26,929 bases of DNA from a virus. Below are positions 2 to 9,849 of the stretch, in pieces. The notes below the pieces were generated by a model. The model saw nothing but the letters and a program-made list of their open reading frames with translations. It did not search any database and was not told where the DNA came from. The stretch spans positions 1 to 26,929 of the IMG/VR virus record IMGVR_UViG_3300047678_000421. One strand, 5' to 3'. A program made the position numbers and the translations under genes. How positions within the stretch are numbered: the first letter of the stretch is position 1; every line of letters starts with the position of its first letter.

Positions 2-1330
2 GACCGGCCGGACATCGATCCGGTGCTGCTGCTCGGCTGGATCGGCGTCGCCTATCTCGGCGGCGCGCTCGACTGGCGATCGGCGGTGACGCTGGTCGGC
101 GACAAGGGCACCGGCAAGTCGACGCTGCAGGAGGCGGTGAAACAGATCTTCGGCGACGCGCTTTTCGACCGCGCCAACACCACCGCCGCGGACATCTACC
201 AGAAGCTCGGCCACGACACGCGCCCCGTCGCCGTCGACGAAATGGAAGCCTCGGCCGACAACCGCAATCTCATGAAGGTGGTCGAGCTCATGCGCCAGGC
301 ATCGAGCGGCGCGTTCGGCGGCCGCGGCGGGTCCGACAGCAAGGGCGGTGTCGAGATCCAGATGCGCTCGGCGTTTCTGTTCTCGGCGATCAACACGCCG
401 CCGCTCCTGCCGCAGGACCTCTCCCGGATCGCGGTGTTACGTCTGCGCGAGCTGCCGGCGAGCGCCGCGACGCCGCCGGCGATCGTCGACGTCGAGACGT
501 GCGGCCGCAAGATCCTCGCGCGGCTCATGCACGAGTGGCACCGCTTTCCGAAAACGCTCGCCGCCTATCGCGAGGCGCTGGGGCAGGGCGGCCACAACGG
601 GCGCGGCCAGGACACCTACGGCACGCTGCTGGCGGCCGCCGATCTCATCCTCGGGCCGGAGCTCGCCGACGAGCTCGGCATCGCGATGGTCGACGACCTG
701 TCGCCGTGGGCGAAGCTGTTGCACGTCGACACGCTGCCCGAAGTCGGCGACGCGATCCCGAACTGGCGGGCGTGCATCAACCACCTGTTCCAGAGCCGCG
801 TGCCGGCCTGGCGATCGGGCGAACGCGCGACGGTCGGCCAGCTCCTCGACGACATGGTGAAACCATACGGGCGCGCCGACGACGATCGCGGCGTCTCGAT
901 GGAGCACGCCAAGCGGCAGCTCGCCCAGGCCGGGCTCGGCATCAGCTGGGAACGGGATCGCGGCACGCTGCTGGCGGTGCCGAACCAGTCGTCGCTGCTC
1001 GAGCAGATGTTCTTCGGCTCGCGCTGGCAGGGCGTGCCCGGCGCCGGCGGATGGTCGGAGGCGCTCCGCCAGGGGCCGCGCGACGTCTGTCTGTTCGAGG
1101 CGAAGGGCAACCGCGTCAGGATCAACGGCGTGCAGCAGCGGTGCACGCTGATCGTACTCGACCGGATCGATGAAGACCAGACAAGAGGCGAGGAGCGACC
1201 GCAGGGAGCGACCGGGAAGGAACAAGAGGCGGGGAGCGCCGGAGGCGCGACAGGGAAGTGGGAGACTGACTGGGTGACGCCGGCGCCCGACGACGAGGTG
1301 CGCGCAAGCGTGCCGGGGACGAGCCCGTGA
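2..1330 (+). CDS. Phage replicative primase-helicase, C-terminal part (5' truncated by window)
   Basis: The reading frame is open from base 2, so the true start lies upstream; the first in-window GTG (23) is probably internal. Counting from that GTG, a Walker A motif GDKGTGKST lies at residues 26-34, a Walker B-like PVAVDEME at 68-75, and a third motif SAINTPPLLPQDLSR at 121-135 resembles the sensor/arginine-finger region of phage P-loop helicases of the primase-helicase (D5/SF3-like) type. This suggests an ATP-driven DNA-unwinding role in phage replication. The C-terminal ~50 residues (from EDQTRGEERP) are low-complexity and are encoded by two tandem copies of the dispersed repeat, so the ancestral protein probably ended near residue 385. 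The stop codon overlaps a third repeat copy. The family placement is by motif only; a primase or polymerase domain, if present, lies outside the window. Confidence 0.8.
   Translation, partial: DRPDIDPVLLLGWIGVAYLGGALDWRSAVTLVGDKGTGKSTLQEAVKQIFGDALFDRANTTAADIYQKLGHDTRPVAVDEMEASADNRNLMKVVELMRQASSGAFGGRGGSDSKGGVEIQMRSAFLFSAINTPPLLPQDLSRIAVLRLRELPASAATPPAIVDVETCGRKILARLMHEWHRFPKTLAAYREALGQGGHNGRGQDTYGTLLAAADLILGPELADELGIAMVDDLSPWAKLLHVDTLPEVGDAIPNWRACINHLFQSRVPAWRSGERATVGQLLDDMVKPYGRADDDRGVSMEHAKRQLAQAGLGISWERDRGTLLAVPNQSSLLEQMFFGSRWQGVPGAGGWSEALRQGPRDVCLFEAKGNRVRINGVQQRCTLIVLDRIDEDQTRGEERPQGATGKEQEAGSAGGATGKWETDWVTPAPDDEVRASVPGTSP
1181..1258 (+). repeat. Dispersed purine-rich repeat, two tandem copies
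   Basis: Two copies, about 1181-1219 and 1222-1258, each begin ACAAGAGGCG(A/G)GGAGCG and end with GCGAC(C/A)GGGAAG. They lie in frame in the helicase gene and encode its low-complexity tail. The second copy contains the small inverted repeat GCGCC-GGA-GGCGC, a variant also present in the copy at 23235. Confidence 0.8.
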
Positions 1331-1368
1331 CAAGAGGCGAGGAGCGAGCCTTGCGAGCGACCGGGAGG
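1330..1368 (+). repeat. Dispersed purine-rich repeat, copy at helicase/HNH junction
   Basis: It starts on the last base of the helicase stop codon with ACAAGAGGCGAGGAGCGAGC and ends with GCGACCGGGAGG. The terminal GGGAGG (1363-1368) lies 5 bases before the HNH gene's ATG at 1374, so this copy appears to supply the ribosome-binding site of that gene. Confidence 0.8.
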
Positions 1369-1373
1369 CAGCG

Positions 1374-1937
1374 ATGAAGCACGTCGTCGTCGGCGCGCAG
1401 CACCAGTTCGAGGCGATCGTTTCCGACGAGGATTATCTGTTCCTGGTGAACTGGCGCTGGAGCTTCGCGCGCTCGCATCCGCGATCGGGACGCGAGCTGA
1501 TCTACGCCAGGCGGTGCGTCACCGTCACCGACTTCGAGCTCGTCGATCGCTGGGGCGGGAAGACGATCGTCACCAAGAAATTCGACCTGTTCATGCACCA
1601 CGTCGTGCTCGCCCGCATGGGCTATCCGGAGCCGCCCAGGCCCGGCTGGACGGCCGACCACATCAACACCCGCACCATCGATAACCGGCGGGAGAACCTC
1701 CGGTGGGCCTCGCCGACGTTCCAGGCGTTGAACCGCGCATCGCATCACGACCGATCGCCCGAGCACGCCCGCATGGTCGCGGAGGCGCTTCTGCGGATGG
1801 CGCCGGAGCACACGATTTCCGCTCCTCTTGCTGTCCCGGTCGCTTCGCTCCGCGCCTCTTGTGGTCCCGCGCCCGCACCCGGTGGGACGGGCGATCCCGC
1901 TCTGGCGCGGCGGTTGACGGCGGAGGAGCGGCAGTAG
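1374..1937 (+). CDS. HNH endonuclease (HNH_3 / homing-endonuclease type)
   Basis: A 187-aa protein. Residues 74-115 hold the HNH_3 signature: MHHVVLARMG with paired histidines, then DHINTRTIDNRRENLRW with the DH pair at 95-96, Asn104 and Asn108. This arrangement is typical of free-standing phage HNH endonucleases of the homing type, which nick or cut DNA using one metal ion. The start is supported by GGGAGG 5 bases upstream, contributed by a repeat copy. Residues after about 140 are low-complexity; residues 150-163 are encoded by an inverted copy of the dispersed repeat, so the active protein probably ends earlier. It sits between the replication gene and the packaging genes, a common place for such selfish or packaging-associated endonucleases. 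Whether it is mobile, or assists packaging as some HNH proteins next to terminase genes do, cannot be decided here. Confidence 0.8.
   Translation: MKHVVVGAQHQFEAIVSDEDYLFLVNWRWSFARSHPRSGRELIYARRCVTVTDFELVDRWGGKTIVTKKFDLFMHHVVLARMGYPEPPRPGWTADHINTRTIDNRRENLRWASPTFQALNRASHHDRSPEHARMVAEALLRMAPEHTISAPLAVPVASLRASCGPAPAPGGTGDPALARRLTAEERQ
1821..1863 (-). repeat. Dispersed purine-rich repeat, inverted copy in HNH gene tail
   Basis: On the minus strand this reads CACAAGAGGCGCGGAGCGAA followed by GCGACCGGGACAGCAAGAGG. It is the same family as the copies at 1181, 1330 and 25577 but in the opposite orientation, and is read through in frame as the C-terminal tail of the HNH protein. Confidence 0.75.
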
Positions 1938-1945
1938 CGTAGCGT

Positions 1946-1987
1946 TCCCCCGGTGCGTCCGGGCTCTGCCCTGGCGGGCGCGGGGGA
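1946..1987 (+). terminator. Imperfect GC-rich stem-loop after HNH gene (possible terminator)
   Basis: TCCCCC (1946-1951) pairs with GGGGGA (1982-1987), and inside it GCG pairs with CGC and CCG with CGG, with a 3-base bulge and a loop of about 13 bases. It lies 9 bases after the HNH stop codon. There is no T-run after it, so intrinsic termination is uncertain. Confidence 0.3.
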
Positions 1988-2082
1988 GTGAGACACTTGG
2001 AGGCGGTGTCTCGGCTGTGTCTCGGGCAGTGTCTCGGGGTTAAGCCGCTGGCGTCGTTGCGTGATTGGCGTTTTGAGACACC

Positions 2083-2104
2083 GAGACACCGGCAACGGTG
2101 TCTC
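2083..2104. promoter_or_regulatory. Perfect 9-bp inverted repeat formed by two heptamers
   Basis: GAGACACCG and CGGTGTCTC are exact reverse complements separated by GCAA. The centre of the heptamer array is therefore either a symmetric protein-binding site for a dimer or an RNA/DNA hairpin with a 4-base loop. Confidence 0.7.
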
Positions 2105-2163
2105 CCTCATATGCGCGCGTGTGTGTACGAGGGAAAGTAAGTGTCTCATGTGTCTCAGTGTCT

Positions 2164-2198
2164 CAAAGTAGATAATAGATAGGTAGATCAATTGTTTA
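2164..2198. promoter_or_regulatory. AT-rich patch with three TAGAT repeats (possible unwinding element or promoter)
   Basis: This 35-base stretch is AT-rich in an otherwise very GC-rich window. TAGAT occurs at 2169, 2176 and 2184, 7-8 bases apart, directly after the heptamer triplet 2141-2164. GATAAT (2171-2176) also resembles a -10 element, with transcription toward the packaging genes; no clear -35 was found. An origin unwinding element and a promoter are both consistent. Confidence 0.45.
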
Positions 2199-2274
2199 GC
2201 CCGAGACACTTCGCGAGACAGTCCGTGACAGCGGATGGCCTTGCCTGGCGCGGACCAATTAAAAATGCCCGGAT

Positions 2275-2913
2275 ATGCTGGGTTTTGGTGCCGCGATGAG
2301 CCGATCGGGGAGCTCGGAGGCATTGCGCGGCGTCCTGGCCGGCGCGGCGGCGGCGATCGCCGGCGGCGACCAGGCGGCGGATCCGGAGCCCGAGCTCCTC
2401 GGCCTGTTGCCGCCCTCGCGCAACCCGGTCGGCCACAGCGAGCGCGAGAAAGTGGCGGAACAGGTGTTGGCAGCGGGCCGGGCGCGGGGGGCAGGGCGGC
2501 CGCCCGGTGCGCAGAACCTCGCCACGCGGGACGTGAAGGAATACGTCCGCCGCCTGTTCGGCGACCCGATGGTGGAAAGCGCGCGGTGGCTCATGCACAC
2601 GCCGCAGAGCCTCGCCATCGAGCTCAACTGCACGCTCGCCGAGGCGTTTGACCGGCTGGAAAGCATCCGCCGCGACCTCAGGCGGTACTTCTACGCGCCG
2701 CTGGCGAGCGTCGACGAGAAGGGCAACACGGTGGTGCCGAACTTCGCGCTGCTGATCGGCGATCGCGCGATCGGCGCGGCGGGCGGTATCGCGCCCTGGA
2801 TGACCGATCCGGAAGTGCGCAAGGCCATCGAACTGGAACACCAGCAAGATCAAGGGGTTAGCGATACGGCTCCGGGCGTGTCGCACGAAGAAAAGTCGCA
2901 CGATGGGCAGTAA
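2275..2913 (+). CDS. Putative terminase small subunit
   Basis: A 212-aa protein encoded just upstream of the large terminase. After an Ala/Gly-rich N-terminus comes a GRPPGAQNLATRDVKEYV segment at about residues 73-90, followed by FGDPMVESARWL. This resembles the GRPxGxxN...YL...GxPLE pattern common in phage small-terminase-like proteins. The rest is mainly helical and charged, with an acidic/His tail. Small terminases recognise the packaging start on phage DNA and regulate the large subunit. The call rests on position and this motif and is moderate. The frame is closed by TAA at 2260, so the start is ATG 2275 or the internal ATG 2296; neither has a strong ribosome-binding site. Confidence 0.5.
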   Translation: MLGFGAAMSRSGSSEALRGVLAGAAAAIAGGDQAADPEPELLGLLPPSRNPVGHSEREKVAEQVLAAGRARGAGRPPGAQNLATRDVKEYVRRLFGDPMVESARWLMHTPQSLAIELNCTLAEAFDRLESIRRDLRRYFYAPLASVDEKGNTVVPNFALLIGDRAIGAAGGIAPWMTDPEVRKAIELEHQQDQGVSDTAPGVSHEEKSHDGQ

Positions 2914-3216
2914 TGGCGGATTTCAGCCATTGCTGGCGTGTTCGCCGATGATCGAAAATCAGCGGGGAACCGGGCAGGGTCGCGCGCCTGGTGCAAGGTC
3001 GAGCGAGGGGCCGGCGTCTCGCGCGCGAGGGTGCCCCCCCGTCCGCGCGGGGGTGCCACCCCCAAGGTTGCCGGCGGCCGCGTCCCCATGCGGGGGAACC
3101 CTGAGATTGGCGCCGGCGCGCCTGAGCGGCGTGACGGCGGACCTATCCATTCTCGCCGGGACCGGGCGCGGGCACCGGGCGCGGCCTCGCCCCGCCGAGC
3201 CTGGAAGGGGCGCGGG
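2914..3216. other. Structured non-coding gap before the large terminase
   Basis: The frame stays open here, but its translation is a low-complexity Arg/Gly/Pro/Ala string unlike the protein that follows, so I read it as non-coding. It contains a perfect 12-base palindrome CTCGCGCGCGAG (3018-3029). It also has C7 (3034-3040), G5 (3049-3053) and C5 (3059-3063) tracts, where the G tract can pair with either C tract, and a TCCCC/GGGGA hairpin with loop ATGC (about 3083-3096). A packaging site, a leader RNA or an attenuator are possible. No promoter was recognised. Confidence 0.5.
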
Positions 3217-4797
3217 TTGAGCGGGCTCTACGATTTCGGAACGCTCAACCAGGTGCTCGAGCAGAGCTCCGCGGCGCGCAACCTTGCCAGCTGGGATCCC
3301 GACCTGGTCAAGGCGGAGACGCTCGGCGCGACGCAGAACCTCATGCGGAGCGCCGGCCCGGTTTCCGACGCCTACATTCTCGGTGCCGATGCGTTCGCGC
3401 TCCTCAACGGCCCGGGCGGGTCGGGGAAGACGGTCGCCAGCTGCAAGAAGGCCCTCATCAGCGCGCAGCGCATGGTGCCGGTCGGCTCTCGCGACGGGAA
3501 GCCGCTGCGGCGCTACGTGCTCGGCGTCTGGCGGCAGAAATACGCAAACCTGTGGAGCGCCACCATCCCGTCGTGGTGGGAGGTGTTTCCGAAGGACCTG
3601 CCCGGATCGTCGTGGACCGGCGCCAGCCCGCGCAGCGCCCAGCACATCATCCGCTTCGAGGACGCCTTCGGCATCATCGAGCTGATCGCGATGTTCGAGG
3701 CCTTCGGCGAAAGCGCCAACCCCGAGGACCTGCTCGGCAAGCGCTTCACCGACGTCTACCTCAACGAGCTCACGACCTTCCCCGAGGAGCTGGTGGCCTA
3801 CCTGGTCGACCGCGTCGGCCGCGACCCGCCGCAGGCGGTGACGCGGCGCACCGGACGCTTCTTCGCCGACTGCAACGCGCCGGACGTGACCGATTTCGTG
3901 TTCCGCGATTTCTTCGAAACGCCGAAGCCCGGCTACCAGCTCTATCGCCAGCCCGGCGGCCGCGACCCCGGCGCCGAAAACCCGGCGATGGGCCGCGCCT
4001 ACTACGAGAACAGCGCGCGGATGAACGCGCACCGGCCGTGGTGGGTGCGCCGCATGGTCGACAACGTGCCCGGCATGTCGGTCGGCGCCGACCTGGTCTA
4101 TCCGGCCTACGACGACGAGCGGATGCTGGCGTCGGGCACGATCCCGGTCGAGAAGCGGCTGCCGGTGATCGTCGGCGTGGACGGCGGTCTCACGCCCGGC
4201 GTGATCTATTCGCAGGAAATGCCGGACGGGCAGATGCGGTGGCTGGCCGAGATCGCGATGGAGCGCGGCGGCATGGAGGAGCTGGCCCGCTCGATGCTGG
4301 CGCTGGAGGCGTGGCGCTTCAAGGACTGCGAGTTCGTCACCGACTGCGATCCGTCGATGCTCGCCGGCGAGGAAAACGACAGCGGCGTGAAGCTCGAAAA
4401 GGGCTCCGACCGAGAGCGCCTGGCGGCGGCTCTCGGCCGCAAGGTCACGGAGGCGCGGACCAACGACCCGAACGTGCGCTGGGACGCGGTGCGCGACAAG
4501 CTCAACCTCAATCTCGGTCCCGGCCGGCCGGGCTTCCTCCTCGATCCGGGCTGCAAGACCGCGCGCCGCGGCTTCCTGCAGACCTACCAGTACCGGAAGA
4601 CGCGCGGCACCAACGACCTGTCGTCGGTCGCCAAATGCTTCGAAAGCCACGTCCACGACGCCGGCCAGTACGCGGCGCTGCGCAACGGCAGCGAGGACGC
4701 CCGCAAGCGCCGCACCGACATTGCCCGCGAGCGCCAGGCGCGCCGCGAGTCCGCGCGCGGGCAGGTCGCCCGCTACAGCCCGCTGCACCGGCGATGA
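3217..4797 (+). CDS. terL: Terminase large subunit (ATPase and nuclease)
   Basis: It powers DNA translocation into the capsid and cuts the concatemer. Counting from TTG 3217 (526 aa), Walker A GPGGSGKT is at 65-72, Walker B-like TDVYLNE at 178-184, and the coupling motif ADCNAP at 217-222. The C-terminal RNase H-like nuclease shows VGVDGG at 319-324, TDCDPS at 375-380 and a terminal SHVHDAGQYAAL, matching the usual acidic triad. The frame stays open upstream to an ATG at 2938. However, that extension has atypical composition, whereas TTG 3217 is preceded by GGAAGGGG with 6 bases of spacing and gives a family-typical length. The stop overlaps the next gene's ATG in ATGA, implying translational coupling. 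Confidence 0.93.
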   Translation: MSGLYDFGTLNQVLEQSSAARNLASWDPDLVKAETLGATQNLMRSAGPVSDAYILGADAFALLNGPGGSGKTVASCKKALISAQRMVPVGSRDGKPLRRYVLGVWRQKYANLWSATIPSWWEVFPKDLPGSSWTGASPRSAQHIIRFEDAFGIIELIAMFEAFGESANPEDLLGKRFTDVYLNELTTFPEELVAYLVDRVGRDPPQAVTRRTGRFFADCNAPDVTDFVFRDFFETPKPGYQLYRQPGGRDPGAENPAMGRAYYENSARMNAHRPWWVRRMVDNVPGMSVGADLVYPAYDDERMLASGTIPVEKRLPVIVGVDGGLTPGVIYSQEMPDGQMRWLAEIAMERGGMEELARSMLALEAWRFKDCEFVTDCDPSMLAGEENDSGVKLEKGSDRERLAAALGRKVTEARTNDPNVRWDAVRDKLNLNLGPGRPGFLLDPGCKTARRGFLQTYQYRKTRGTNDLSSVAKCFESHVHDAGQYAALRNGSEDARKRRTDIARERQARRESARGQVARYSPLHRR

Positions 4798-8964: not shown

Positions 8965-9849
8965 ATGGGCCCCGTCACAGACACCCACCGCATCACCTAC
9001 AAGGAAAACGTCGCGCTTGCGATCCAGGAGAAGAGAGCCGTCTTCGAGGCCGGCTTCGACTACACCTCCGGGATCAGCGGCAAGCAGACGCAGGTCCTCA
9101 ACGTCATCGGCAAGTCGGAAGCGCGCGTCGATGCGCCGGAAGGCGGCGACACGCCCGACATCGACAGCCAGCACGAGCCGATCTGGGTCCGCCCGACGCG
9201 TCTCGACTGGGGCAAGGTGCTGCGCAAGGAAGACAGCATCAAGGCGCTCACCGACTACAAGTCGGAGTACGTGCAGGTCGGCGCTTCGGCGATGACCCGC
9301 GGCAAGAACGCGATCATGGCGGCGGCGGTGTTCGGGCCGAAGCTGATCGGCAACGAGGTGCCGAGCTCGACCGCATGGGCCGGGCGCACCGTGGCGATCG
9401 ACGTCGGCGGCACCGGCTCGACCGGCTTCAACGTCAAGAAGATCCTGCGCGGCATCCAGCTCATGGAGACCGACGACGTCGAGGTCAACGAGGAGCAGCT
9501 GGTCATCGGCGCCGATCCCGTCGAAATCGAGCAGCTGTGGGGCGACATCACCTTCGTGTCGAAGGACTACCGCAAGGACGCCCAGCTCGACGACATGAAC
9601 AAGCGGGTGATGGCGATCTTCGGCATTCCGATCATCACCACCAAGCGCTTCGCCGACGCGGCCGCCAACCAGTCGGTCGCCGGGCTGTGGTGCAAGTCGG
9701 CGATGAAGTGGGGCGACGCCATGCCGCTCGACATCAACTCGGCGCCGAACCCGCAGAAGCAGTTCCGCGAGCAGGTCTACATGGAAAACTGGATTGCGGC
9801 GACGCGGACCTTCGACGCCAAGGCGGTGAAGATCCTCAACCTCTACTAG
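8965..9849 (+). CDS. Major capsid protein
   Basis: A 294-aa protein with the strongest ribosome-binding site of the early virion block and a hairpin after its stop, both usual for the most highly expressed virion gene. It directly follows the scaffold block. The sequence runs from VTDTHRITYKENVALAIQEKR through an acidic DTPDIDSQHEPIWVRP region to an invariant-looking INSAPNPQKQFREQVYMEN and the C-terminal AVKILNLY. The style matches capsid subunits of podoviral and related phages with the HK97 fold; the fold itself is inferred, not visible. It would form the icosahedral shell. The exact capsid family cannot be settled without a search. Confidence 0.85.
   Translation: MGPVTDTHRITYKENVALAIQEKRAVFEAGFDYTSGISGKQTQVLNVIGKSEARVDAPEGGDTPDIDSQHEPIWVRPTRLDWGKVLRKEDSIKALTDYKSEYVQVGASAMTRGKNAIMAAAVFGPKLIGNEVPSSTAWAGRTVAIDVGGTGSTGFNVKKILRGIQLMETDDVEVNEEQLVIGADPVEIEQLWGDITFVSKDYRKDAQLDDMNKRVMAIFGIPIITTKRFADAAANQSVAGLWCKSAMKWGDAMPLDINSAPNPQKQFREQVYMENWIAATRTFDAKAVKILNLY

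Follow-up and report, generated by a model that had tools for sequence, protein, structure and literature searches.

Heptamer iterons in a conserved dyad form a probable replication origin of temperate podophages related to BPP-1

We found that a short non-coding array of heptamers in a temperate podophage related to BPP-1 is very probably its replication origin, at which the C-terminal region of the phage primase-helicase would bind the heptamers, two facing hexamers would form, an AT-rich patch would melt and synthesis would run in both directions. With this reading, a broad group of temperate phages gains a predicted origin. The DNA studied, here called the window, is one whole IMG/VR record of 26.9 kb, an incomplete phage record with a GC fraction of about 0.70.

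The window opens with the C-terminal part of the primase-helicase gene (2–1330, plus strand; PHROG 21086/35358), which is cut by the record start and encodes the putative origin-binding initiator. An HNH endonuclease gene (1374–1937, plus strand; PHROG and Pfam HNH, the Pfam match falling just below the cut-off) lies between the helicase gene and the array. The small terminase (TerS) gene (2275–2913, plus strand) lies beyond the array, outside the proposed origin; its product had no match of its own in PHROG or Pfam and is homologous to TerS of the related loci L006, L004, L007 and L046. Past it come the large terminase (TerL), an acetyltransferase-like ORF, the portal (PF12236) and the capsid (PF19821); from primase to portal (primase, HNH, TerS, TerL, acetyltransferase, portal), the genes are arranged as in the Bordetella phage BPP-1. 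In L006, the closest relative (helicase 76% identical), the HNH gene is upstream of the primase, unlike in the window, and it is thus outside the array module. An Rfam search of 1300–3300 gave no match. A repeat of 17–38 bp (ACAAGAGGCGAGGAGCGA...), present in three direct copies and one inverted copy (window 1180–1366 and 1819–1862; helicase 3′ end, helicase–HNH gap and HNH 3′ end), looks like a mobile or host-type repeat.

GTGTCTC occurs 11 times on the two strands of the window, every copy within 1990–2209; whole-window shuffles averaged 3.0 copies and never gave more than 8. An earlier, sequence-only reading of this DNA had listed eleven exact heptamers and one near-copy, which was borne out (the near-copy is GAGACAg, 2215–2221), as were its spacings (triplets at 11–12 and 8–9 bp, a pair 8 bp apart), its three TAGAT words and its placing of the array in non-coding DNA, between the HNH end at 1937 and the start of the small-terminase ORF at 2275. 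The distance from the helicase gene, put there at about 650 bases, measured about 660 bp from the stop at 1330. A change in GC skew, which had been suggested as a sign of an origin, was not seen at the array within the window.

What that reading noticed as an array, it did not recognize as a dyad: two nested inverted repeats (2018–2043/2195–2220 and 2072–2089/2150–2167) share a centre at 2119, which falls inside an alternating purine-pyrimidine tract. From the left, the array begins with an outermost iteron (1990–1996, minus strand), followed by the outer-left triplet of GTGTCTC (2006–2035, plus; starts at 2006, 2017 and 2029, 11–12 bp spacing), the inner-left iterons GAGACAC (2075–2089, minus; starts at 2075 and 2083, 8 bp spacing), of which L006 has a third copy, and an extra iteron off the canonical slots (2098–2104, plus). 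At the dyad centre stands the strictly alternating pyrimidine-purine tract CATATGCGCGCGTGTGTGTACG (2108–2129), flanked by CCCTC and GAGGG (2104–2108/2129–2133). To its right are the inner-right triplet (2141–2164, plus; starts at 2141, 2150 and 2158, 8–9 bp spacing), an AT-rich patch with the TAGAT words (2165–2199), which is a candidate DNA-unwinding element, and the outer-right triplet (2203–2231, minus), composed of GAGACAC (2203–2209), the near-copy and a degenerate GTGACAG (2225–2231), which from its position is probably the third site of that triplet.

An IMG/VR search with TerS alone found nothing, and relatives were obtained through portal and helicase searches; a helicase profile search yielded 80 loci in viruses and 6 in bacteria, namely in Pseudovibrio, Methylobacterium, Zavarzinia and other alphaproteobacteria. 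L006 carries nine copies of GTGTCTC with the place and plan of the window, and the enrichment for which the sequence-only reading proposed a test was found: the rest of the window contains no copy, and the whole 41-kb record of L006 has one stray copy beyond the nine. L027 and L046 have the same heptamer in the same location, and the more distant L004 and L007 keep the plan with GTGTTGC-like and GGTTAGA-like words, respectively. A scan for triple GTGTCTC picked out L027, L046 and L105 as true relatives, most of the other loci being without these genes; among the latter, the viral contigs L050, L053, L055, L039 and L119 hold GTGTCTC clusters, some of mixed orientation, with no helicase or terminase relatives detected.

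We then scanned 91 loci (some redundant) de novo, taking with no preset word the densest mixed-orientation heptamer cluster per 300 bp. A strong array, with a score of at least 11, was present in 79 of the 91, and the maximum among 62 Markov-simulated loci was 7.1; the window array scored 23.7 (−log10 Poisson, uncorrected for word choice). No scanned locus held a second cluster scoring at least 11 elsewhere. Where both genes were present (76 loci), the array without exception lay between helicase and small terminase and downstream of the helicase, the shortest gap to the end of the helicase match being 79 bp. Seven of the 12 weaker loci had a cluster in the same interval, and the other five were without a TerS match in the DNA examined. 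The array lies 52 bp past the helicase stop in L006, and in the window the HNH gene intervenes; over the phage loci the median distance was 28 bp from array to the start of the TerS match and 478 bp (up to 4.8 kb) from array to helicase. Outside the 76-locus set, Acinetobacter phage Acjo_20 (L217) is an exception: here the array precedes the helicase gene, and the DNA examined contained no related TerS. L007 (4061–8368) encodes a lone helicase of 611 aa without Prim-Pol fusion and, upstream, a separate DNA-primase-like gene, so that exchange of the primase leaves the helicase and its array in place. Two GC-rich, microsatellite-like direct repeats, GCCGTA/GCCGTC units in L006 (1293–1497) and ACGGCTACGGCG units in L027 (876–990), also reached high scan scores and were rejected as iterons, being simple repeats.

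We measured the layout in 64 dereplicated loci from the centre of the longest alternating run, which served as the zero point, the iteron clusters having been found independently of the tract. Four clusters recur: an outer-left one on the plus strand (11–12 bp spacing, −110 to −85), an inner-left one on the minus strand (8–9 bp, −50 to −25), an inner-right one on the plus strand (8–9 bp, 25/34/42) and an outer-right one on the minus strand (11–12 bp, 87/99/111). The plan is its own reverse complement, with clusters convergent around the dyad and a canonical full occupancy of 3+3/3+3 = 12. The sites in canonical slots (at most one mismatch) averaged 8.8, and at least 12 were counted in 9 of the 64 phage arrays; the twelve-site count depends on degenerate copies. 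The AT fraction peaks at 0.68 between +45 and +75, flanked by the inner plus and outer minus clusters, compared with about 0.35–0.45 in the outer flanks, and the left side of the dyad shows a weaker rise. The family keeps its layout while the heptamer word differs between lineages. The conservation anticipated for relatives with the same flanking genes thus holds for the array and its layout and fails for the iteron sequence, which differs family-wide.

A strictly alternating purine-pyrimidine (R/Y) run at or near the centre exceeded the expectation of its own locus in 63 of the 64 arrays (empirical p≤0.05), with a median length of about 20 bp (range 10–51). Runs of at least 18 numbered 44 in 17 kb of arrays versus 4 in 796 kb outside, an enrichment of about 500-fold. 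The base sequence of the tract is not conserved and its step usage roughly follows the genome, so that the pattern itself seems to be the thing kept. A preference for Z-DNA was considered and rejected, pyrimidine-purine step usage following the genome with no special bias, and TA lying above expectation (78 versus 38). Alternating runs of the Arsenophonus plasmids described below are shorter (10–13 bp), those of L223 and L225 are not above chance, and in BPP-1 inverted pairs enclose a run of 14 bp. Tentatively, and at somewhat below even chances, we suggest that the tract works as part of the origin and that selection acts on its R/Y pattern, through DNA shape or an alternative helix, instead of on the bases themselves. 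It could then be a torsional hinge, or a left-handed switch, separating two helicase hexamers that face each other. If so, base class and not sequence would encode this element of the origin. We found no earlier description of such a conserved tract, and it appears to be undescribed.

The CCCTC/GAGGG arms around the window tract also bring to mind a stem-loop origin of the pRN1 type, in which the central hairpin would be essential and the repeats secondary. The architecture of the initiator, Prim-Pol plus an SF3-like helicase, fits this, and pRN1 and BIP-1/BPP-1 provide a precedent (PMC4234260). However, predicted hairpins were no more stable than shuffles that preserve the R/Y pattern (5 of 64 below a z of −1.64; only 16 of 64 stood out when flanks were shuffled), for which reason hairpin or cruciform formation was rejected as the conserved feature. 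What is conserved is the iteron layout and the R/Y alternation, and BPP-1 itself has inverted TTTGCCTC pairs around its hairpin. We thus regard a stem-loop origin as highly improbable.

In the phages the array is nearer to TerS than to the helicase, and position alone is therefore ambiguous as to which protein reads the iterons. The array could be a packaging start (pac or cos), with the heptamers as sites of the TerS encoded downstream, which would recruit TerL to cut; TerS follows the end of the array at once even where the helicase is kilobases off, and 15 of the 64 loci share a conserved AATTAAATATTnCCG motif in the array–TerS interval. However, linear plasmids of Arsenophonus (L219–L222) hold an array of phage-like layout 52–74 bp past the helicase stop (4+2/2+4 = 12 sites in L219, L221 and L222, L220 departing from this), while their TerS, which gives no match to the phage TerS profile and may not be homologous to the phage protein, is 3–6 kb from the array in three plasmids and was not found by tblastn in L219. 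Furthermore, the iteron changes among these plasmids while TerS remains 93–96% identical, and the TerS genes have a separate, constant CTACAAG repeat of their own. L220 and L221 differ in their iterons with TerS 93% identical, and their helicases are about 98–100% identical over most of alignment columns 50–450, then 70–80%, then 36% at the C-terminus.

Statistical association points the same way. In partial Mantel tests, the iteron correlated with the helicase C-terminus given TerS (0.27, p=0.002) and did not track TerS given the helicase C-terminus (0.04, p=0.11), the iteron–helicase covariation being modest (rho 0.30). Sliding-window contact mapping gave no significant result, with 0.195 for the best helicase window versus 0.197 for a 25-residue TerL window, and since the TerL window equals the best helicase window, the contact region was not localised. 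Together with the arrays that accompany the helicase in L217 and in phage-plasmids with other terminases (L224 and, weakly, L225), these sequence comparisons favour linkage of the array to the helicase and not to the terminase, and a packaging start, an alternative that the sequence-only reading had offered as a pac site, is unlikely. The CTACAAG repeats, nearly all in one orientation near TerS (L220 6987–7172, L221 9038–9275, L222 6619–6777), are a candidate packaging site of this protelomerase-bearing plasmid group, apart from the helicase array.

The same reading had also offered a multi-operator, at which a phage repressor or activator bound to the heptamers would control late (terminase, head) transcription. 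The array is intergenic and upstream of the packaging and head genes, and repeats in both orientations could suit a dimeric regulator. However, a consensus scan of 1800–3000 revealed no sigma-70-like promoter or terminator, and the dyad and AT-rich patch persist, still linked to the helicase, where the next gene is different, as in the plasmids and in the phage-plasmid L224. L224 and L225 have other terminases; the array is directly 3′ of the helicase gene in L224 and likewise, weakly, in L225, both arrays being weak. We consider a purely regulatory array quite improbable, though an origin could additionally regulate nearby transcription.

Just before TerS, 131–170 bp (once 257 bp) to the right of the tract centre, we noted a motif, AATTAAATATTnCCGnTTATTC, whose TTAAATA core is present in 15 of the 64 loci (background 0.14% per 340 bp). 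Examples are in L006 (about 9677–9700), L128, L129, L136 and L140, and the window has a degenerate form near 2258–2275. A role as late promoter or as packaging site is conceivable for this motif.

The origin reading, with the phage's own primase-helicase as the iteron-binding initiator, was the leading suggestion of the sequence-only reading, and it gains support from sequence and model comparisons alike. The primase-helicase of L006 is 1043 aa long with a Prim-Pol domain (PF09250) at its N-terminus. An AlphaFold (AF2) model of the helicase part encoded in the window had a mean pLDDT of 87, and its Foldseek matches included papillomavirus E1, the NrS-1 CTR, pox D5/E5, SaPI5 Rep and PriRep1 with dsDNA (7ola and 7pds among them). 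By VIA-align it matched SCCmec Cch (5dgk) with a Z of 14.7 over residues 2–390, MCM ATPase matches being lower and covering only about 1–250. Modelled helices at 254–264, 278–286 and 300–308, followed by strands at 313–317 and 321–327, are consistent with a winged helix, judged from the secondary structure of the whole-chain model and the match to Cch; a sequence profile of the C-terminal region found no significant solved relative. The window initiator is thus predicted to have the helicase fold of Cch and SaPI Rep.

We propose that the primase-helicase is an SF3/Cch-like ring helicase (a Prim-Pol fusion in L006) whose C-terminal region would bind the heptamer iterons. Monomers would load on two mirror half-arrays, each made of one outer and one inner triplet that point towards one another (nominally six sites). 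Two hexamers would form in this way on either side of the central alternating tract, facing each other, and the tract may give the pair of rings a torsional or flexible hinge. Sites spaced by 11–12 bp would lie roughly on one helix face and those spaced by 8–9 bp would wind round the helix, and both arrangements may aid ring assembly. Melting would start where the AT-rich patch separates the inner-right cluster from the outer-right one, whereupon the primase would begin synthesis in both directions. The nominal two-by-six layout would provide a concrete geometry for double-hexamer loading. The family would also constitute a natural library of helicase–iteron pairs, with one layout and many words, which makes the recognition code of self-loading SF3-type helicases testable.

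A literature search on iteron origins in temperate phages, confined to open-licence papers, turned up no description of the present array. Among known systems, pRN1 requires a 100-bp stem-loop located 3′ of its replication gene, and a stem-loop origin was also proposed for BIP-1/BPP-1, no origin-like iterons having been found in BIP-1 (PMC4234260). As in ours, the initiator of these systems combines Prim-Pol with SF3 and the origin lies 3′ of the initiator gene, but their origins are described as a stem-loop without iterons, whereas the present arrays are dominated by iterons. Small inverted iteron pairs between primase and TerS do occur in two cultured phages, in BPP-1 (L218, 26601–26710) and at the ends of L216 (BcepC6B), and are possibly a reduced form of the same origin. 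The primase-polymerase of NrS-1 (PDB 6lrb/6k9c) has a helicase region related in fold and forms hexameric rings (PMC7102993); in the portion of that paper drawn on here, two 8-nt recognition sites in mid-genome are suggested as possible origins, and, unlike here, no iteron array is reported.

P4, which the sequence-only reading took as its model, is alike in its short iterons in both orientations (type 1, bound by alpha) and in having crr directly 3′ of the alpha gene. However, P4 has two separated sites, a different layout and no R/Y tract (the longest run in ori and crr is 7), and its primase is of the Toprim type (PMC4234260). Its type 1 iteron, a GGTGAACA-like 8-mer, is split between ori and crr, whereas the window heptamer is different and, in this incomplete record, is found in one place only. 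The SaPI/PICI origins, in which a Rep or Pri-Rep has iterons downstream (PMC6092414, PMC7581432), are closer to the present arrays in position and in their two-winged layout. There too a non-coding array lies 3′ of the primase/helicase gene with iteron sets around an AT-rich region, and the initiator has the SCCmec Cch/SaPI Rep-like fold. Recognition of the downstream iterons is attributed to the C-terminus in SaPI Rep, and the C-terminal domain of Cch2 binds its repeats (PMC7581432); the window initiator would read its iterons likewise. In contrast to a PICI, a helper-dependent satellite without head genes of its own, the window encodes TerL, portal and major capsid, and the present arrays are in complete temperate podophages, phage-plasmids and small linear plasmids, with a Prim-Pol primase in L006. 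The dyad of four clusters in two spacing classes also sets them apart, as may the central R/Y tract. By comparison of sequences, then, the array of this temperate podophage family appears to be an iteron origin of SaPI/PICI type, to which the dyad layout and the conserved alternating tract would be new additions.
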